Positions 4,143 through 49,865 of a DNA stretch of 64,000 nucleotides are shown piece after piece. The position numbers and the translations under genes are program-made. Source of the DNA: Burkholderiales bacterium (GTDB lineage Bacteria > Pseudomonadota > Gammaproteobacteria > Burkholderiales > SHXO01); contig JADZGB010000027.1 of NCBI GenBank assembly GCA_020854105.1, forward strand, positions 1 through 64,000, in the 5' to 3' direction. Numbering within the stretch: the stretch's first letter is position 1; every line of letters begins with the position of its first letter. The notes under the pieces were generated by a model, which was not told where the DNA came from, searched no databases, and was given only the letters and a program-made list of their open reading frames with translations.

Positions 4143-5012
4143 ATGGAAGCCTTCCTGCACCAGGTTCTCTCCGGCCTCGCCACGGGCGGCATCTACGCAA
4201 GCCTCGCGCTGGCGCTGGTGATGATCTACCAGTCCACCCACCACATCAATTTCGCGCAGGGCGAGATGGCCATGTTCTCCACCTACCTCGCGTGGACGCT
4301 GATCAGCACCGGCATGAGCTGGTGGGGGGCCTTCACCCTCACGGTGCTGGCATCCTTCGCCCTCGGCATGCTGATCGAGCGCATCCTCATCCGCCCGGTC
4401 GAGCATGCGCCGGTTCTCACCGTGGTGATCGTGTTCATCGGCCTGCTGGTGATCCTCAACAGCGTGGCCGGCTGGATCTTCACCTACACCATCAAGAGCT
4501 TTCCCAGCCCGTTCCCGTCCGAGGCGGTGCTCGGCGGCCTCATGTCGGCGCACGAACTGGGTGCGGTCGCCGTGACGCTCGTTCTGCTGATCCTGCTCTA
4601 CCTGTTCTTCCAGTTCACGCCGCTGGGCCTCGCCATGCGGGCGGTGGCGCAGAATCCGGTCTCGAGCCGGCTGGTGGGCATCCGCGTCGGCTGGATGCTC
4701 GCACTCGGGTGGGGGCTGGCAGCAGCCATCGGCGCCGTGGCGGGCATGATGATCGCGCCGATCGTCTACCTCGATCCGAGCATGATGTCCGGGGTGCTGC
4801 TGTACGCTTTCGCCGCCGCGCTCATGGGCGGCATCGACAGTCCGGGCGGGGCGGTGATCGGGGGATTCATCGTCGGCGTGGTGGAGAACGTGATGGGCGC
4901 GTTCGTGATCGGCACCGAGCTCAAGCTCACCGTCGCGCTGATCGTCATCATCGCGGTGCTGCTGGTGCGCCCCTCCGGCCTGTTCGGGCGCGTCATCATC
5001 AGCCGCGTGTGA
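4143..5012 (+). CDS. livH: Branched-chain amino acid-type ABC transporter permease LivH
   Basis: Integral membrane permease of 289 aa with about eight hydrophobic segments. The N-terminal LSGLATGGIYASLALALVMIYQ and the following INFAQGEMAMFSTY are hallmark LivH motifs. GIRVGWMLALGWGLAAAIGAVAGMM and GGIDSPGGAVIGGFIVGVVEN near residues 180-260 are the conserved permease loop contacting the ATPases. The ATG at 4143 is the natural start. The stop is 7 bp before livM. It forms the translocation pore with LivM. Confidence 0.92.
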   Translation: MEAFLHQVLSGLATGGIYASLALALVMIYQSTHHINFAQGEMAMFSTYLAWTLISTGMSWWGAFTLTVLASFALGMLIERILIRPVEHAPVLTVVIVFIGLLVILNSVAGWIFTYTIKSFPSPFPSEAVLGGLMSAHELGAVAVTLVLLILLYLFFQFTPLGLAMRAVAQNPVSSRLVGIRVGWMLALGWGLAAAIGAVAGMMIAPIVYLDPSMMSGVLLYAFAAALMGGIDSPGGAVIGGFIVGVVENVMGAFVIGTELKLTVALIVIIAVLLVRPSGLFGRVIISRV

Positions 5013-5019
5013 GCAGACC

Positions 5020-6027
5020 GTGATCCAGGCATCGAAGTCCCCCGCGGCGCAGCCCGCCAGCAGCTCCCGCCTGCTCCCCGTGCTCGCCGTCCTGATCGGA
5101 CTGGCGCTGCTGTGCGCACTGCCGTTCGTGGTGAGCAGCTACCGGACGTTCCAGTTCACGCTGGCGCTGATCTATGCCATCGTGCTGCTCGGCCTGAACA
5201 TCCTCACCGGCTACAACGGCCAGATCTCGCTCGGCCATGGCGCGTTCTACGCGATCGGTGCGTATGTCGCCGCGATCCTGATGGACCGCTTCGGGGTGCC
5301 GTACTGGGCAACGATTCCGGTGAGCGGTGTGGTGTGTCTGGTGTCCGGCTTCCTGTTCGGCTTGCCGGCGCTGCGCCTGCAGGGACACTACCTGGCGCTG
5401 GCGACCTTCGCGCTCGCGGTAGCCATGCCGCAGCTACTCAAGCACAGGGGAATCGAGGAGTGGACCGGGGGTGTGCAGGGGATCGTCATCGTCAAGCCCA
5501 CTGCTCCGGCGGGTCTGCCGCTCACGCAGGACCAATGGCTCTATCTGCTCACGCTGGCGGTTGCGGTGCTCATGTTCGCACTGGCGTGGAATCTCGTGCA
5601 CAGCCGGGTCGGCCGGGCGCTCATGGCGATCCGTGACCACCCGGTCGCGGCGGAGGCGATGGGTGTGCACAGCGCCTGGTACAAGTCCGCGGCGTTCGGC
5701 ATCAGCGCCCTTTACACCGGCGTTGCCGGTGCGCTGGGTGCGATCGTGGTCCAGTTCGTCGCGCCCGACAGCTTCACCGCGGTGCTGTCGATCAACTTTC
5801 TCGTGGGCGTGGTGGTCGGCGGCCTGGCCTCGATATCGGGGGCCATCTGGGGGGCGCTGTTCATCCAGTTCGTGCCCAATTTCGCGGATCAGATCTCGAA
5901 AGCCGCACCCTGGGCGATCTACGGCATCTTCATGATCGTCTTCGCCTATACCATGCCCACGGGGGTGGCCGGCTTCCTGCGGCTGTCCTGGGCCCGCGTG
6001 CGGGGCCGTCGGGGCAGCTCGCTATAA
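5020..6027 (+). CDS. livM: Branched-chain amino acid-type ABC transporter permease LivM
   Basis: Second permease (335 aa), GTG start at 5020, only 7 bp after livH. Family motifs include YAIVLLGLNILTGYNGQISLGHGAFYAIGAY (residues about 50-80) and GRALMAIRDHPVAAEAMG (about 200-217), the EAA-like cytoplasmic loop. About nine to ten membrane segments are predicted by hydrophobicity. The TAA stop lies inside a TATAAT hexamer that may serve the downstream binding-protein gene. Confidence 0.92.
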   Translation: MIQASKSPAAQPASSSRLLPVLAVLIGLALLCALPFVVSSYRTFQFTLALIYAIVLLGLNILTGYNGQISLGHGAFYAIGAYVAAILMDRFGVPYWATIPVSGVVCLVSGFLFGLPALRLQGHYLALATFALAVAMPQLLKHRGIEEWTGGVQGIVIVKPTAPAGLPLTQDQWLYLLTLAVAVLMFALAWNLVHSRVGRALMAIRDHPVAAEAMGVHSAWYKSAAFGISALYTGVAGALGAIVVQFVAPDSFTAVLSINFLVGVVVGGLASISGAIWGALFIQFVPNFADQISKAAPWAIYGIFMIVFAYTMPTGVAGFLRLSWARVRGRRGSSL

Positions 6028-9847: not shown

Positions 9848-11029
9848 TCAGCTGGCCGGGCCGGTCACGCAGGCCGCGAGGATCTCGATCATCGCGTCGA
9901 CCTCCTCGTGCGTCACGTTGAGCGCCGGCATGAAGCGCAGGCATTCGGGGCGCGGCGAGTTGATCAGCAGTCCGCGCGCGCGCGCCGCGTCGACGATGCG
10001 GCCGCCGATGGGTTGGCCCAGGTCGAGCGCGAGCAGCAGTCCCCGGCCACGCACCTCGCCGAGGTGCTGCGCGCGGGAGAATGCCTCCAGACGGCCGCGC
10101 AGGTGCTCGCCGGTCCTGCGGACCCCGTCCAGGAACTCCGGGGCGCCGATGCTGCCTGCCACGGCCAGGCCGACCGCGCACATCAGGGGATTGCCGTTGT
10201 AGGTGCCGCCCTGGTCGCCCGGCTCGAAGCACGAGACCGATTCGCGCGCCAGCATGGCCCCGAGCGGAACGCCGCCTCCGATGCCCTTGCCCAGCGACAT
10301 GATGTCGGGCTCGATGCCCGCGTGCTCGTATCCGAACAGGTCGCCGGTGCGCCCCATGCCGGTCTGGACCTCGTCCACGATGAGCAGGATCCCGCGTTCC
10401 GCGGTGAGCGCGCGCAGGTCGCGCAGGAACTGCACTGTGGCCGGCCACACGCCCGCTTCTCCCTGGATCGGTTCCAACATCACGCCGACCGTGCGCGGGC
10501 CGAGCAGTGCCTCCACCGAGGCGAGGTCGTTCAGGCGCGCGCGCGGGAACCCGGGCACCTTCGGCTCGAACAGCGCGTCGAACTGCTTCTTGCCCGACGC
10601 GGACATGGTGGCCAGCGTGCGCCCATGGAACGCGCCGTCGAAGGTGATGATCTCGTAGGCACCCTCGCGGTGCCGTGCGCCATACTTGCGCGCCAGCTTG
10701 ATAGCGCCCTCGTTGGCCTCGGCACCCGAGTTGGTGAAGAACACGCGGTCGAAGCAGCTGTGGCGCACCAGCCAGTCCGCCAGGCGGATGCTGGGTTCGT
10801 TGTAGAAGGCAGGACTGGGCGTGATCAGGCGGTGCGCCTGCACGGCGAGCGCGTCGGCGATCGGCTGCGGTGAATGGCCCAGGCAGTTCACTGCCCAGCC
10901 CTGGACGAAATCCAGATAGCGGCGACCCTCGTGATCCCACAGCCAGGATCCCTGGCCCCTGACGAAGATCAGTTCGGGTCGCGTCGTGATGTTCATCAGC
11001 GCACCGGCCGGGAACTGCTCGAAACCCAT
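9848..11029 (-). CDS. argD: Class III aminotransferase, acetylornithine transaminase type
   Basis: PLP-dependent class III aminotransferase of 393 aa. Visible signatures are [38 protein letters not shown], the cofactor-binding [13 protein letters not shown] and the Schiff-base lysine in [15 protein letters not shown]. This pattern and the length match ArgD (N-acetylornithine to N-acetylglutamate-5-semialdehyde, arginine synthesis). No other arg genes flank it, so a broader omega-aminotransferase role is possible. The ATG at 11029 has AGAGG almost abutting it; Met12 (10996) is a possible alternative start. Confidence 0.85.
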
Positions 11030-11042
11030 CCTCTGTCTGCCC

Positions 11043-12326
11043 CTAGAGTGATTCGACGAATGCCGCCAGCGCCTCGCGCTGCCGGGCGCTCATGCGGCCG
11101 TACGCATCGCGCGCCGCGCGCGCTTCGCCATCGTGCCACAGGATGGCCTCGGCAATCGTGCGTGCCCGCCCGTCATGCAGCAGCCCGGCGTGCGCAGCGC
11201 GCGCCAGGTAGGCACCCAAGCCCCACAGGGGTGCAGTGCGCCACTCGCCGCCTTCTGCGGCACCCTCGGGGCGCCCGTCGCTCAGTCCAGGCCCCAGGTC
11301 GTGCAGCAGAAGATCGGTGTAGGCGCGGACCGGCTCGGCATATCCCTCGCGCCCGAGCTCGGGCAGATGGCATGCAGCGCAGCCTGCCGCCGTGAACAGC
11401 CGCGCGCCTTCACCGGCCGCTGCGGGTTCACGCAGCGCCGATGCTGGGGCGGGAAGCGCACGCAGGTACAGGACCAGGTCGGCGATCTCCGCGTCTTCGA
11501 TCTCCCTCGACTCGCCGGCTGCGAGCCGCGCACACTCCCACTGCACGGGCGGGCAGTCGTGCGCAGGAAAATGCGAGGAGGTGATGCCCAGGTCCATGAA
11601 CAGCGCGCCTGCGGCCCGAGCACGCAGGTCCGGCTGCATCGCCTTGTGGCCGAAGCGGCCCGTGACCGGCTCGCCCCCGCCCGCATCCGGCACGAGGTGC
11701 GCACGCCCCGATACGCCGGCGGCGCGCTGGCCGGCCGCTACGCGGGCGAGCGTCGTCGCGCTCACGTCCTCCAGCAGTCCGAGTCCGCCAAGGGCGGGCG
11801 CGAGCCGCAGCGACACGAGCGTGTCCGCGGACAGTTCGCCGAACGGAAGGCCGGTCAGGTGCAGCACCGGGCGGCGCAGGCTCGCGCGTGTGCCGTCGGC
11901 CAGGGTGATGACATGCTCGTGCCACTCGACGTGGACCTCGCCCTCGCCCGGCACCTTGCCGAGGACGCCCTGGTACTGCAGCTGGTTGCCGTAGGCCGGA
12001 TGCGGCAGCAGCAGCGCGCCCACGCGCTGCGACAGACGCAGCACGCCCTGGCGCAGCGGCACCTCGGCCGAGGCCGGGGGCGATCCCCGGCCGGCGCCGG
12101 CGTGGCAGTCCAGGCAGGTCTCGCCGTTGGAGGTCGGTCCGCGACCCCAGCGCCCCAGCCCCGAGGGCGCCACGCTCCAGCGCTGCTCGAACAGGATCCG
12201 GCCGCGCTCGATGCCCGCCACGTCCTGCACCGGCGTGCCCGCGCGGGACGGCGCGAGCGCAGCGACGCAGGCGAGCGTGACCGCGAGCGCGAGCGCGGCC
12301 GGCGATGGAGGGCGAACACGGAACAT
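11043..12326 (-). CDS. Periplasmic di-heme oxidoreductase (DUF1111/DHOR family)
   Basis: A 427-aa secreted c-type cytochrome. A signal peptide covers about residues 1-30. Two CxxCH heme-attachment motifs are present, CLDCH at 71-75 and CAACH at 316-320, and the C-terminus has the family [21 protein letters not shown]. This matches the di-heme thiol-oxidoreductase-like family, often found near imelysin/iron-uptake genes, but none is seen here. It begins head-to-head with ppk2, about 40 bp apart. The electron partner is unknown. Confidence 0.85.
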
Positions 12327-12364
12327 CGGATGTGCGCGTATGCTGGCTTCGCGGCCAGGGCCGA

Positions 12365-13186
12365 ATGGAGAGGCAGGTGAACTTCACACGATACAGAGTC
12401 GAGCCGGGCAGTGCACCGGAGCTCGCGCAGCGCGACCCCGCGGCCCGGGGCGGCATTCCCGCGAGCAAGCAGGAGCGTGCCGATAGGCAGGCCGAAATGG
12501 CCGGCCGCATCGACGTGTTGCAGGATCTGCTGTACGCCGAGCACCTGAACCGGATGCTCGTCATCCTGCAGGGCATGGACACCTCGGGCAAGGACGGCAC
12601 CATCCGTCACGTGTTCGGCGAGGTCGATCCTCTGGGCGTGCGAGCCGTGAGCTTCCGTGCCCCCGTGGGCGAGGAGATGGAGCGCGACTATCTCTGGCGC
12701 GTGCACCGGCAGGTGCCGGGCACGGGCGAGATCGTCCTCTTCAACCGCAGCCATTACGAGGATGTGCTGGTCCCGTGGGTGCACGGGCACATCGACCGGG
12801 CGGAGTGCGAGCGGCGCTACCAGCACATCAACGCGTTCGAGCGCATGCTCGCCGAGACCGGCACCACGATCGTGAAGCTCTTCCTGCACATCTCTCGGGA
12901 CGAGCAGCGCAGCCGGCTGCAGGCGCGTCTGGACGATCCGCTCAAGCGCTGGAAGTTCGACCCGCGCGACCTAGAGGTGCGCAGGAAGTGGGATGACTAC
13001 ATGCAGGCGTACGAGGATGCGATCGCGGCCACCTCGTCGCCGTGGGCGCCCTGGTACGTGGTGCCTGCCAACTCCAAGTCCGGACGGAATTTCGTGGTGT
13101 CCTCGCTCCTGATCGACATCCTCGAGCAGCTGAAGATGAAATATCCGGAGCCGTCCCAGGACTATTCAGGCCTCGTATTGGACTGA
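12365..13186 (+). CDS. ppk2: Polyphosphate kinase 2 family protein
   Basis: A 273-aa PPK2 that transfers phosphate between polyphosphate and nucleotides. Walker A reads GMDTSGKDGTIRHVF (G-M-D-T-S-G-K) and the lid/Walker B region NRSHYEDVLVP. The segment DPLKRWKFDPRDLEVR is typical of the class III-like branch, which can phosphorylate AMP and ADP. The ATG at 12365 or the GTG at 12377 (with GGAGAGG just upstream) are both plausible starts. Its 3' end overlaps the 3' end of bioF on the other strand by 25 bp. Confidence 0.9.
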   Translation: MERQVNFTRYRVEPGSAPELAQRDPAARGGIPASKQERADRQAEMAGRIDVLQDLLYAEHLNRMLVILQGMDTSGKDGTIRHVFGEVDPLGVRAVSFRAPVGEEMERDYLWRVHRQVPGTGEIVLFNRSHYEDVLVPWVHGHIDRAECERRYQHINAFERMLAETGTTIVKLFLHISRDEQRSRLQARLDDPLKRWKFDPRDLEVRRKWDDYMQAYEDAIAATSSPWAPWYVVPANSKSGRNFVVSSLLIDILEQLKMKYPEPSQDYSGLVLD

Positions 13187-44231: not shown

Positions 44232-44267
44232 GGGCGCTAGAATCTCGCCCTCGTGCAGGAGAAACCC

Positions 44268-45317
44268 ATGAACGCGCCTCACCCGCCTCCGCGTCTGACC
44301 AGCCTCGCCCATGGCGGCGGCTGCGGCTGCAAGCTTGCCCCCGGCGTGCTGCAGCAGATCATCGCCCGGAGTGCCGGCGGCGTCGTGCCGCCCGGCCTGC
44401 TGGTGGGCATCGAGACCAGCGACGACGCGGCCGTGTACCGCATCAGCGAGACCCAGGCGATCGTTGCCACCACCGATTTCTTCATGCCGGTGGTGGACGA
44501 TCCCTTCGACTTCGGCGCCATCGCCGCGACCAACGCGATCTCGGACGTGTACGCGATGGGCGGCACGCCGCTGTTCGCGCTGGCGCTGGTCGGCATGCCG
44601 GTCGACAAGCTCCCGGTGGAGACCATCCGCCTGATCCTGGAAGGCGGCGAATCGGTGTGCCGGCGCGCCGGCATTCCGGTGGCCGGAGGGCACAGCATCG
44701 ATTCGGTGGAGCCGATCTACGGCCTGGTGGTGATCGGTCTGGTCGACCCGCGCCACCTCAAGCGCAACGCCGACGCACGGGCCGGTGACGCCCTCATCCT
44801 GGGCAAGGCACTGGGGGTCGGCATGTACAGTGCGGCGCTGAAGAAAGACAGACTCGCCGCCGAGCAGTACCGGGTGATGCTCGACAGCACCACGCAGCTC
44901 AACACGCCCGGCGCAGAGCTTGGCCGAATGCCGGGCGTGCACGCGCTGACCGACGTCACCGGCTTCGGCCTGCTGGGACACCTGCTCGAGGTGTGCCGTG
45001 GTTCGGACCTGGGCGCGCGCATAGAATGGGACCGGGTGCCGCTGCTGCCCGGCGTGCTCGATTTCGCCCGGCAGGCAGGGCGCACCGGCGCCTCCGTGCG
45101 CAACTGGGCGAGCTACGGCGCTCAGGTCGACCTGGGTGGGCACGGCGAGGCGCAGCGGGATCTGCTCACCGACCCGCAGACCAGCGGCGGACTGCTGGTG
45201 AGCTGCGCGCCGTCGGCGGTGGACGAGGTGCTCTCGCTGTTCCGCGCGCACGGATTCGCCCGCGCAGCGGTGATCGGCGAGATGCGCGCGGGGGATGCGC
45301 GCGTGCACGTGCGCTGA
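44268..45317 (+). CDS. selD: Selenide, water dikinase
   Basis: A 349-aa SelD making selenophosphate from selenide and ATP. The glycine-rich N-terminus has GGGCGCKLAPGVL with the catalytic Cys and Lys, then TSDDAAVY, TTDFFMPVVDDPFDFG, NAISDVYAMGG and TDVTGFGLLGHLLE. The active position is Cys, so it is not itself a selenoprotein. AGGAG before the ATG at 44268 sets the start. A TAGAAT hexamer lies at 44238-44243. selA/selB or selU are not in the window, so whether the product serves Sec-tRNA or selenouridine cannot be told. Confidence 0.93.
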   Translation: MNAPHPPPRLTSLAHGGGCGCKLAPGVLQQIIARSAGGVVPPGLLVGIETSDDAAVYRISETQAIVATTDFFMPVVDDPFDFGAIAATNAISDVYAMGGTPLFALALVGMPVDKLPVETIRLILEGGESVCRRAGIPVAGGHSIDSVEPIYGLVVIGLVDPRHLKRNADARAGDALILGKALGVGMYSAALKKDRLAAEQYRVMLDSTTQLNTPGAELGRMPGVHALTDVTGFGLLGHLLEVCRGSDLGARIEWDRVPLLPGVLDFARQAGRTGASVRNWASYGAQVDLGGHGEAQRDLLTDPQTSGGLLVSCAPSAVDEVLSLFRAHGFARAAVIGEMRAGDARVHVR

Positions 45318-45344: not shown

Positions 45345-46712
45345 ATGGCTCGCAAGGTCTTCGACAACATTCTCGGCACCATCGGTGACACGCCGCTGGT
45401 GAAGCTCAACCGGATCGTGCGCGAGATCCCGACGACGGTGTACGCCAAGGTCGAGACGTTCAATCCCGGGCACAGCATCAAGGACCGGATGGCGCTGCGC
45501 ATGATCGAGGAGGCCGAGCGCAGCGGCGCACTCGCGCCAGGCGGCACGATCATCGAGGGCACCAGCGGCAACACCGGCATGGGGCTGGCCATCGCCGCCA
45601 TCGTGAAGGGCTACGGGTGTATCTTCACCACCACCGACAAGCAGTCCAAGGAGAAGGTCGATGCCCTGCGCGCTTTCGGCGCGGAGGTGATCGTGTGCCC
45701 CACGGACGTCGATCCCGAAGATCCGCGCTCGTACTACTCGGTTTCCTCGCGCCTGGTGAAGGAGACACCGAATTCGTGGAAGGCGAATCAGTACGACAAC
45801 CTCAGCAACGCGCAGGCGCACTACGAGACCACGGGCCCCGAGATCTGGGAGCAGACCGAGGGAAGAGTCGATCATCTCGTCGTCGGCGTCGGCACGGGCG
45901 GCACCATCTGCGGCACCGGCCGCTACCTGAAGGAGAAGAAGCCGTCGGTTAAGGTGTGGGGGATCGACACCTACGGCTCGGTGTTCAAGAAGTACAAGGA
46001 GACGGGGATCTTCGACAAGGAGGAGATCTACCCGTACGTGACCGAGGGCATCGGCGAGGATTTCCTGCCGCAGAACGTGGACTTCTCCGTCATCGACCAC
46101 TTCGAGAAGGTGACCGACCGCGACGCCGCCATCTTCACGCGCGAGATCGTCAGGCAGGAGGGCATCTGGGTCGGCAACTCGGCGGGCTCGGCCATCGCCG
46201 GCATGCTGCAACTCAAGGATCGCTTCAAGAAGGGCGAGACGGTGGTGGTGATCTTCCACGACCATGGCACGCGCTACGTCGGCAAGATGTTCAATCCCGA
46301 CTGGATGCGCATGATGGGCTACGACGATCCGCCCGGTCCGACCGCGCGCGACCTGGTGCGCAACAAGGAGGTGGCCGACGTGGTCGGCGTGGAAGTCAGC
46401 GACACCGTCGGCACCGCCGTCCAGGTGATGAGCCGGCACGGCTTTTCGCAGATCGCGGTGACGCAGGACAAGCGCGTGGTGGGGTCGCTCGACGAGACGC
46501 ACGCGTATGCCGCGCTGGTGCGCGATCCGAAGCTGCGCGGGCAGCCGGTGAAGTCCATCATGCAGAAGGCCTTCCGCTTCGTCGACATCGATACGCCGGT
46601 GCAGCTGCTGGCACCGATGATCACGCCGGAGCACCCCGCCGTGCTCGTGCGCGACTTCAAGGCAGGCACGACCTACATCCTCACCGGCTATGACGTGTTG
46701 AAGGCGATCTGA
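45345..46712 (+). CDS. cbs: Cystathionine beta-synthase with C-terminal CBS pair
   Basis: A 455-aa protein. The PLP fold carries the Schiff-base Lys in NPGHSIKDRMAL, the loop EGTSGNTGMGLA and the phosphate loop GVGTGGTICGTG. Two CBS motifs follow from about 335 to 455 (VADVVGVEVSDTVGTAVQVMSRHGFSQIAV and VKSIMQKAFRFVDIDTPVQLL). This is the transsulfuration enzyme condensing serine with homocysteine. It lies 27 bp after selD, probably cotranscribed. The CBS pair usually binds an adenosyl ligand and regulates activity. Confidence 0.92.
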   Translation: MARKVFDNILGTIGDTPLVKLNRIVREIPTTVYAKVETFNPGHSIKDRMALRMIEEAERSGALAPGGTIIEGTSGNTGMGLAIAAIVKGYGCIFTTTDKQSKEKVDALRAFGAEVIVCPTDVDPEDPRSYYSVSSRLVKETPNSWKANQYDNLSNAQAHYETTGPEIWEQTEGRVDHLVVGVGTGGTICGTGRYLKEKKPSVKVWGIDTYGSVFKKYKETGIFDKEEIYPYVTEGIGEDFLPQNVDFSVIDHFEKVTDRDAAIFTREIVRQEGIWVGNSAGSAIAGMLQLKDRFKKGETVVVIFHDHGTRYVGKMFNPDWMRMMGYDDPPGPTARDLVRNKEVADVVGVEVSDTVGTAVQVMSRHGFSQIAVTQDKRVVGSLDETHAYAALVRDPKLRGQPVKSIMQKAFRFVDIDTPVQLLAPMITPEHPAVLVRDFKAGTTYILTGYDVLKAI

Positions 46713-47654: not shown

Positions 47655-49166
47655 CTACCTGCGCAAGCGCTCGGCCGCCTGAACCATGGCCGCGAGCTTG
47701 CTTCGTGCGATCTGCGCAGAGGCGACGGGATTGTCCGCGAAGGTGGCGAAACCGCAGTCGGGTACCAGCAGCACGCGTTCCTTGCCGAACAGGGTGATCG
47801 CCTGGCGCGCTCTCGCCTCGATCTCCTCGGCGCTTTCAGTGCGCGCGTGCTTCTGGTTGACCACGCCCACCCCCACGCGCTGTTCTTCGCGCAATCCGCG
47901 CAAGATCCCCAGCTCGCCCGCGCGCGGCGTGCACGATTCCAGGAACAGCGTGCCCACCTGCAGCGTGCGCAGCGTCTCGACCAGCGGCGCGTAGCTCCCG
48001 GACAGGCAGGCGTCCTCGTCGGGCGTCCAGTTGCCGCGGCACATGTGCAGGCCGATGCGCTCTACGGGAAAACCCTGCGTGAGCGCATTGATCAGGTCGC
48101 GCGCGAAGGCCAGCTCGTGCGCGGCATCGCCCTTCTCCGACAGGGCGCCGCACATGAAGCTGCGCTGATTCCTGGCGCCGGTGAATACCACCTCGGACAG
48201 CACCGGCTCGTCGAACTGCACCATCGACACGCCAGCGGCGAGCAGATCGGCGAGTTCCTCGCGCAGCACGCGCACGATATCCTGCGCGATGTGCTCGCGC
48301 GAGCGGTACGCGCTGTCGGAGACGCACTCCATCCACATGGTGCGTGCCAGCAGGTACGGACCCGGCAGGGCGACCTTGACCGGTCGCTGCGTGAGCCCCT
48401 GCAGGAAGCGGGCTTCGTGAACCGCGATCGGCCGCGAGCGCCCGAGCGGCCCGAACACCGCGGGATGGCGCACGCTTGCCGCCGGCACGTCCAGGGCACG
48501 CAATTCCTGTTCGAAGTGCGCCGGATCGTCCACCAGAGGCAGCAGATCGGTCAGCGGGATCAGCTGGCAGTTGTCCAGGCGGGCGGCGACGAAGCTCGCG
48601 TAGCTGTCGCGGCGCTGCTCGCCATCGGTCAGCACGTCCACGCCCGCGCCCAGTTGCGCCTCCACTGCGAGGCGCACCGCGTCGTCCGCGGTGGCCTGGA
48701 AGTCGTCCTCCGACAGGCGACCCTCGAGGTACTCGTGGATGGCCTGGAGCATCCAGCGCGGACGCGGCCAGCTGCCCACGCCCATTACCGACAGGGGCGT
48801 GATGGCGGGAGCGGGTGCCGCCTCGGGAAGGCGGCCGGGAATCGTCACCGGGACCAGCGACCGGGTCGCGACGAACTGCGCCCGGGGGAGCGCCTGCGCC
48901 GCCGCACGTTCGCTCAAGGCGCCCTTGCACACGAGGAAGGAGACGGCCTTGCCCGTAGAAGCCTGCGACACCAGTTCGTTGCCGGTGAGCCGGCACCACG
49001 CCGGCAGATCCTCCCTGACCGAGATCTCGGTTGAGAGAATCTCCAGCAGAGCGCCGCGCGGGAGCGGATCGATGTGCTTGCGGATCAGCAGCAGCAGGCC
49101 GCTGCCGCAGTCGAGGTCGCCTCCGTCGAAGCTGACGGCCGGCGCGTGCGGATGCGGATGGCTCAT
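47655..49166 (-). CDS. TusA-like domain fused to MetE-type methionine synthase
   Basis: A 503-aa fusion. Residues about 12-85 form a TusA-like domain: GGDLDCGSGLLLLIRKHI with Cys20 in place of the CPxP motif, and VREDLPAWCRLTGNELV, shared with the small protein at 49623. After a Pro/Ala linker, residues 125-503 are a cobalamin-independent methionine-synthase C-domain. It has MGVGSWPRP, TDGEQRRDSYASF, QFDEPVLSEVV and a complete zinc set His374-x-Cys376 (GLHMCRGNW), Glu410 (LFLESC) and Cys471 (VPDCGFAT). The MetE N-terminal half is absent. It is preceded by DsrE-like and TusA-like genes, suggesting that methyl or alkyl transfer involves carrier-bound sulfur. The reaction is not known. Confidence 0.85.
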   Translation of the reverse strand: MSHPHPHAPAVSFDGGDLDCGSGLLLLIRKHIDPLPRGALLEILSTEISVREDLPAWCRLTGNELVSQASTGKAVSFLVCKGALSERAAAQALPRAQFVATRSLVPVTIPGRLPEAAPAPAITPLSVMGVGSWPRPRWMLQAIHEYLEGRLSEDDFQATADDAVRLAVEAQLGAGVDVLTDGEQRRDSYASFVAARLDNCQLIPLTDLLPLVDDPAHFEQELRALDVPAASVRHPAVFGPLGRSRPIAVHEARFLQGLTQRPVKVALPGPYLLARTMWMECVSDSAYRSREHIAQDIVRVLREELADLLAAGVSMVQFDEPVLSEVVFTGARNQRSFMCGALSEKGDAAHELAFARDLINALTQGFPVERIGLHMCRGNWTPDEDACLSGSYAPLVETLRTLQVGTLFLESCTPRAGELGILRGLREEQRVGVGVVNQKHARTESAEEIEARARQAITLFGKERVLLVPDCGFATFADNPVASAQIARSKLAAMVQAAERLRR

Positions 49167-49218
49167 GGGGAAGGGCGCGCCGGCGCAGGCGCTCGGCGGC
49201 GCTGGCAGAGGGCGGTTC

Positions 49219-49587
49219 TCAATAGCTGATGCAGGGCGTGCCGTCGGCCAGGAATTCCACCAGCTTCGCACCGCCGACGATGGTCGCGCCGTCCACCAGC
49301 GCGGCCTCGTCGAGCTTGCGCTTCTTGAAGCAGGGCGAGCATACGTACGTCTTTCCACCCGCCTTGACGAAGCTGTCCATCAACTCCTTCAGCGGGGCGA
49401 AGCCTTCCTCGTGGATGGAATCGGCGAAGCCTGTCTGTGACAGGCGCACGCCCTCGATGCTCAGGAAAACCAGCGTGTCCTGAGCCGAGGCGACAGCGGC
49501 GTTGGCCACGACGAAGGCGACGGTGGCCTTGTCGGTGTTGTCCTTCGAGCAGGTGAGATTGACGCAGAATTTGCCGGTTCCGGCCAT
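49219..49587 (-). CDS. DsrE-family protein
   Basis: A 122-aa DsrE-like protein: GKFCVNLTCSKDNTDKATVAFVVANAA, TLVFLSIEGVRLSQTGFAD and the conserved active-site segment KTYVCSPCFKKRKLDEAALVDGATIVGGAKLVEFL, where C-S-P-C is the persulfide site. CGGAGACC before the ATG at 49587 sets the start. It sits between a TusA-like gene and the TusA-MetE fusion, so the three most likely pass sulfur among themselves. Confidence 0.88.
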   Translation of the reverse strand: MAGTGKFCVNLTCSKDNTDKATVAFVVANAAVASAQDTLVFLSIEGVRLSQTGFADSIHEEGFAPLKELMDSFVKAGGKTYVCSPCFKKRKLDEAALVDGATIVGGAKLVEFLADGTPCISY

Positions 49588-49622
49588 ATGGTCTCCGTTG
49601 AGGCTCGAGCGGCGGGCGGCGT

Positions 49623-49865
49623 TCAGCCGCCTGCGCGCTGGATGAAATAGAGGTGCCGGTCGGGATCGTGCGCCAGCAGCGTCTCGCCTGTCATGCGGCA
49701 CCACGCCGGAAGGTCTTCGCGCGCGCCCGGGTCGGTCGCGTGAACGCGGATCACCTCGCCGGGCTGCATCGCCTTGAGCCGGAAGCGCAGCCGGATAACG
49801 AGGTCGCCGCAACCGAGGTCCCCGGCGTCCCATTCCTCATCGAACTCGGGTGATTCGCGCTGCAC
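49623..49865 (-). CDS. TusA-like sulfur carrier variant
   Basis: An 80-aa TusA-fold protein, GTG start. The active-site region reads GDLGCGDLVIRLRFRLKAM (Cys19), so the prolines of the usual C-P-x-P are lost. The C-terminal half has REDLPAWCRMTGETLL with a second conserved Cys, also present in the fusion protein downstream and, as AWCRRTGHELL, in the classical TusA at 15184. Of the three TusA domains in the window, the two in this locus form a C-G subtype. The gene opens the minus-strand sulfur locus. Confidence 0.8.
   Translation of the reverse strand: MQRESPEFDEEWDAGDLGCGDLVIRLRFRLKAMQPGEVIRVHATDPGAREDLPAWCRMTGETLLAHDPDRHLYFIQRAGG

Follow-up and report, generated by a model that had tools for sequence, protein, structure and literature searches.

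Relays built from TusA and DsrE proteins serve sulfur oxidation and tRNA thiolation. DsrE/TusA pairs are known to pass on thiosulfate or sulfane sulfur, and thiosulfonate transfer has been described in Metallosphaera (PMC4175335). A second group of described systems, the core methionine synthases (MesA to MesD), includes MesD, which together with MesX constitutes a folate- and cobalamin-independent enzyme; the characterised core methionine synthases use methylcobalamin in vitro (PMC7857596). The methyl donors of this group are largely unknown, and that of MesD/MesX is an open question. Here we describe a module in which a TusA-fold carrier is fused to a MetE-type zinc barrel and encoded next to TusA-like and DsrE-like partners. 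Like the TusA/DsrE relays, it combines a TusA fold that has its invariant cysteine at the same place with a DsrE fold bearing conserved cysteines, encoded in adjacent genes. Unlike them, it carries C-G instead of C-P-x-P, and one of its carriers is fused to the barrel. With MetE it shares the catalytic C-terminal barrel and its residues, including the H/C/E/C zinc ligands, whereas the N-terminal folate-binding half is missing. MesD comes closer, since it too is a single MetE-type barrel without the folate half and has the same zinc and homocysteine residues; the fusion differs from it in the lack of MesX, the fused TusA domain, the TusA and DsrE partners and two cysteine-bearing inserts.

The window, which is the whole stretch of 64,000 nucleotides analysed from a Burkholderiales bacterium, carries the three genes on the minus strand, transcribed in the order tusA-like, dsrE-like, fusion (Table 1). 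A first-pass annotation had described them as a C-G TusA-like protein, a C-S-P-C DsrE protein and a 503-aa TusA:MetE fusion; the open reading frames lie where it had placed them, Pfam agrees with the domain calls, and the residues that it named in the fusion (Cys20, His374, Cys376, Glu410 and Cys471) are correct in the translation. Its further statement that the MetE N-terminal half is absent is borne out by the domain search: the fusion matches Meth_synt_2 (115 bits at residues 230-499) and TusA (30.4 bits at 25-81; cut-off 28.6 bits), while Meth_synt_1 reaches 22.5 bits, below its cut-off of 27 bits, and does so on barrel residues 284-326 only.

Table 1. Features of the module in the window and of genes found with it at related loci
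Feature	Sequence	Position	Strand	Evidence
tusA-like gene, 80 aa, GTG start	window	49623..49865	(-)	Pfam TusA, 43.2 bits
dsrE-like gene, 122 aa, C83-S-P-C86	window	49219..49587	(-)	Pfam DsrE, 51.2 bits
TusA:MetE-barrel fusion gene, 503 aa	window	47655..49166	(-)	Pfam TusA and Meth_synt_2
N-terminal TusA-fold domain of fusion, aa 11-81	window	48924..49136	(-)	Pfam TusA at 25-81; predicted E-H-E-H-E-E
Linker of fusion, aa 82-119, poorly conserved	window	48810..48923	(-)	pLDDT <50 at 90-101; variable in alignment
MetE-type zinc barrel of fusion, aa 120-503	window	47658..48809	(-)	Meth_synt_2; Z 37.2 versus 3rpd
Cys20 codon, putative carrier cysteine of fusion	window	49107..49109	(-)	invariant, 67/67
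His374 codon, zinc ligand	window	48045..48047	(-)	aligned with H/C/E/C of MesD and MetE
Cys376 codon, zinc ligand	window	48039-48041	(-)	
Glu410 codon, zinc ligand	window	47937-47939	(-)	
Cys471 codon, zinc ligand	window	47754-47756	(-)	
Cys281 codon, family-specific insert	window	48324..48326	(-)	69/69; insert absent in MesD and MetE
Cys339 codon, R-S-F-M-C-G-A-L loop	window	48150..48152	(-)	69/69; loop absent in MesD and MetE
HtxB-like importer inside operon	L014	5366-7983		
HtxB-like importer inside operon	L029	5456-7986		
CxxC membrane protein and exported 505-537-aa protein	L113	6865-8946		
CxxC membrane protein and exported 505-537-aa protein	L038	5723-7919		
CxxC membrane protein and exported 505-537-aa protein	L043	5837-7980		
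CxxC membrane protein and exported 505-537-aa protein	L022	5838-7907		
Second DsrE-like gene	L022	4665-5042		
Second DsrE-like gene	L012	9421-9867		
Second DsrE-like gene	L032	1739-2146		

A scan of bacterial and archaeal genomes returned at least 70 loci; with a search of relatives added, close relatives of the fusion were counted in at least 68 loci. After dereplication these relatives are 52-89% identical to each other, and their hosts span Burkholderiales (among them Duganella and Burkholderia), Gallionellaceae, Alphaproteobacteria, Myxococcota, Planctomycetota, an Acidobacteria MAG and Actinomycetota, the last including Corynebacterium, Dermabacter, Helcobacillus and Enteractinococcus; the module is also found on Paracoccus megaplasmids. 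Corynebacterium, Duganella and Burkholderia are aerobic genera. Both partner genes stand beside the fusion in 60 of the 68 loci, with the order changed to dsrE-fusion-tusA in Corynebacterium and in locus L046. Six of the eight incomplete trios are contig or locus ends and the rest are L026 and L034, in the latter of which the binding-protein gene is truncated. Moreover, pairwise divergences are correlated between fusion and DsrE (Mantel r 0.71) and between fusion and TusA (0.55), with none of 1000 shuffles as high, as expected if the three proteins travel together. The recurrence of the fusion architecture is far beyond chance. The first-pass annotation had proposed such a search with tabulated neighbours, and had held that loss of Cys20 together with unconserved neighbours would speak against its interpretation; since Cys20 is never lost (67 of 67 homologues) and the neighbours are conserved, the comparison leaves that interpretation standing. 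Literature searches, in a library that is incomplete, turned up no description of a TusA:MetE fusion; the module is real, widespread and apparently undescribed.

Residue conservation extends to all three proteins. In the alignments, C19, G20, D51 and T59 of the standalone TusA-like protein are present in all 65 homologues, the C-G motif is kept in 65/65 standalone and 67/67 fused TusA-like homologues, and Cys83 and Cys86 of DsrE are found in 64 of 64. The zinc ligands H374, C376, E410 and C471 of the fusion are invariant in every alignment row with a residue at these positions. Ser132, Glu183 and Asp319 align with the homocysteine-binding positions that Price et al. (PMC7857596) assign in MetE and MesD; they are kept in 68/69, 69/69 and 68/69 members of the fusion family and recur in MesD, MetE and other single-domain relatives. 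Barrel, zinc site and homocysteine residues are those of the core methionine synthases, whose activity we predict for the fusion. Epoxyalkane:CoM transferase-like relatives of MetE have a CoM thiol site instead of one for homocysteine; in the alignment with MesD and MetE the fusion retains the homocysteine residues, which would speak against a CoM site. The AlphaFold model of the fusion has a mean pLDDT of 82.8 and a pTM of 0.77. Within this otherwise good model the loop around Cys339 falls below a pLDDT of 50 at residues 335-337 and 339-343; being invariant yet floppy, and bearing a cysteine, it suggests a moving catalytic part.

In a tree of the barrel all 24 fusions form one clade (100/97), apart from both the MesD proteins encoded beside MesX (100/99) and MetE (100/99). 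Its nearest rows are uncharacterised single-domain relatives, which join it unsafely and with long branches. The best solved structural neighbour is 3rpd, a MesD (Z 37.2, 28% identity). By its sequence the fusion is therefore classed as a new lineage among the core methionine synthases and not as a MesD. In genomes of relatives (L077-L084) we also observed an uncharacterised single-domain MetE-like clade that shares R377, N379 and K439 (CRxN motif) with the fusion and neighbours it in the tree on long branches. Two records of Acinetobacter phage MD-2021a (CAKLQH020000007.1, 109987-110970) furthermore have an annotated gene for a MetE-like barrel, which may be MesD-like or host sequence.

The methionine pathway was compared in 26 fusion genomes, all of which were searched for MetH (PF02965), the MetE N-terminal half (PF08267) and MesX (PF08908), and most also for MTHFR (PF02219) and PF02574. 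Another methionine synthase is encoded in 20 of the 26, including the genome of the window, which has MetH and MTHFR and lacks MetE. Neither MetE nor MetH was found in the other six (no PF02965, PF08267 or PF02574), namely Helcobacillus, Corynebacterium NML130628, Dermabacter, Enteractinococcus and two planctomycete MAGs. MTHFR was likewise not found in three of these six (Dermabacter, Helcobacillus and Corynebacterium NML130628), and Enteractinococcus gave weak MTHFR-like matches only; one of the planctomycete MAGs has a strong MTHFR match, compatible with a folate donor for its fusion. No MesX was detected in any of the 26 genomes, and the same search was positive in six of six Dermabacteraceae controls with a single-domain MesD. 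Corynebacterium NML130628 encodes MetX and MetY, and Enteractinococcus MetX, so that both, in which another methionine synthase was not found, should make homocysteine. In Dermabacter and Helcobacillus MetX is missing, so these two may be auxotrophic for methionine. Among 42 Dermabacteraceae genomes, about 26 have a strong MTHFR match, mostly with a full-length MetE; six have the single-domain MesD with MesX, which replaces MetE and MetF in some members of the family, and two have the TusA:MetE module alone. Two fusion-free members (G274 and G280) encode MetX and have neither a full-length MetE nor an MTHFR match; since they seem to lack every option, absence of a synthase alone proves little. 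In Corynebacterium the fusion occurs in 7 of 161 sampled genomes, most of these seven also having a MetE match. The distribution suggests that the module can take the place of an expected methionine synthase, without MesX and probably without a need for methyl-folate.

The most likely reading, in our view, is a core methionine synthase coupled to sulfur carriers, which would form a fifth family beside MesA-MesD; we put the probability of this reading at about 0.45. The barrel would bind homocysteine as a zinc thiolate, and the conserved residues make a strong case for homocysteine on zinc as the predicted acceptor. The methyl group would arrive neither through a folate domain nor through MesX, both of which are absent; gene fusion, synteny and the invariant cysteines point instead to delivery through the fused TusA-like domain and its TusA and DsrE partners. 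With moderate confidence, TusA and DsrE would act in delivering the methyl group or in carrying off the leaving group. The chemistry that we prefer is a guess, and an unlikely one: a small methylated sulfur compound would give Cys-S-S-CH3 on the carrier, the methyl group would pass to homocysteine to yield methionine and a carrier persulfide, and the persulfide would be relayed away by the DsrE cysteine pair together with Cys281 and Cys339. We chose methyl persulfide as the candidate donor because, in general chemistry, perthiolates leave much more readily than thiolates and because it uses all of the conserved cysteines, although its identification is weak. It is also unlikely, and slightly more so, that the full scheme holds, in which a B12-free and folate-free synthase would use the tethered TusA-like methyl persulfide as donor and turn methylated inorganic or organic sulfur into methionine plus sulfane sulfur. 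A fifth family with its own sulfur-carrier relay would make the donor question testable with three small proteins that are predicted to be soluble. It would also bear on how methionine prototrophy and B12 dependence are predicted in Corynebacterium, Dermabacter and soil Burkholderiales.

Since MetE or MetH is also encoded in most of the fusion genomes, the module may instead have an accessory role: it would assimilate or detoxify a small sulfur or selenium compound taken up by the cell, serving to demethylate or dispose of it, with homocysteine as methyl acceptor and methionine as by-product. The supplier would be a PhnDEC-type ABC transporter, whose genes separate dsrE from the fusion gene at about 17 loci of Burkholderiales and Beijerinckia and are absent in the window. 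The binding protein of this transporter shares 43-49% identity with HtxB and carries the HtxB-like pocket signature S128, H158 and F/Y176 in 11 of 11 sequences, and permease and ATPase are of the PhnE and PhnC type, as in HtxBCD. HtxBCD is a hypophosphite importer to which a set of "HtxB-like" proteins is related (PMC5700983, PMC6629693); these have a larger pocket than HtxB and are predicted to bind phosphite (PMC6629693). Unlike HtxBCD, the importer lies within a sulfur/methyl-transfer operon, so that phosphorus is not the cargo one would first expect; another small oxyanion such as sulfite, selenite or methanesulfinate is conceivable, and some "HtxB-like phosphite transporters" may carry such a cargo. 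The embedded importer is a clue to the substrate of the module. In Paracoccus ferrooxidans (plasmid locus L113), a divergent cysteine desulfurase lies upstream (4717-5919) and selA-trxB directly downstream (10560-12931), a possible link to selenium or persulfide supply, and SelD is encoded 2.3 kb from the module in the window. However, most other lineages do without the importer, and neither selA nor SelD is near the module in other loci; we therefore regard an accessory role as possible, if rather unlikely.

The methyl source could also be conventional. The fusion would then be a folate- or corrinoid-dependent methionine synthase, its zinc site being supplemented by the TusA domain and DsrE for redox or persulfide protection. 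The barrel has complete zinc and homocysteine sites, most of the genomes encode MTHFR, and methylcobalamin serves characterised core synthases in vitro (PMC7857596). Yet the folate half is missing, the three genomes without MTHFR are also without MetH, and the invariant carrier cysteines with their near-obligatory partners suggest a catalytic role, which makes a conventional donor quite improbable. Finally, the first-pass annotation had offered both the making of methylated sulfur and a sulfur-dependent methionine route; the latter fits better, because Ser132, Glu183 and Asp319 are conserved. That the zinc site methylates carrier-delivered persulfide or sulfide, releasing methanethiol or other methylated sulfur, would accord with a carrier fused to a thiol-activating zinc site and with the sulfur transfer known from DsrE/TusA pairs (PMC4175335), but it is very improbable, since such an acceptor would not need homocysteine-binding residues and a methyl donor domain is absent, and methylation of homocysteine is the favoured prediction.

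The first-pass annotation had mentioned a GST gene that follows directly; none of the related loci has a homologue of it next to the module, and we exclude it from the system. In the window, selD (selenophosphate synthetase; 44253-45317, +) and a cystathionine beta-synthase (CBS)-like gene (45345-46712, +) converge on the module; the CBS gene is kept only in L004 and L074 (nearest relative) and SelD nowhere else, and both were rejected as parts of it. A role in selenium metabolism suggested by the Paracoccus selA was likewise rejected, selA being near the module in no other locus. Neighbour enrichment gave no clear recurrence beyond the phosphonate-type ABC system, although three transglutaminase-like neighbours turned up, and no sulfur-oxidation or tRNA-thiolation genes recur beside the module. 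The search for riboswitches and regulatory RNAs in the window and 16 loci yielded only one tmRNA and two tRNAs.

The operon also varies in what it contains. In Paracoccus, Aquabacter, Azospirillum and one Oxalobacteraceae member the importer slot is filled by genes for a small CxxC membrane protein and an exported protein of 505-537 aa, for which Pfam gave nothing above cut-off, the PDB no convincing match and fold prediction an unusable model (pLDDT 37.5). About a dozen loci from Burkholderiales have a second, shorter DsrE-like gene adjoining the module. The genome of the window moreover has a second carrier pair, of the ordinary type: at about 14.9-15.4 kb of the window (+), a canonical C-P-G-P TusA (15.2 kb) is preceded by an apparent DsrE-family protein and followed by a hybrid histidine kinase. 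Exported transglutaminase-like proteins are encoded near the module in four hosts (L021:6645-7874, L025:5485-6642, L033:4489-5592 and L113:3481-4587).
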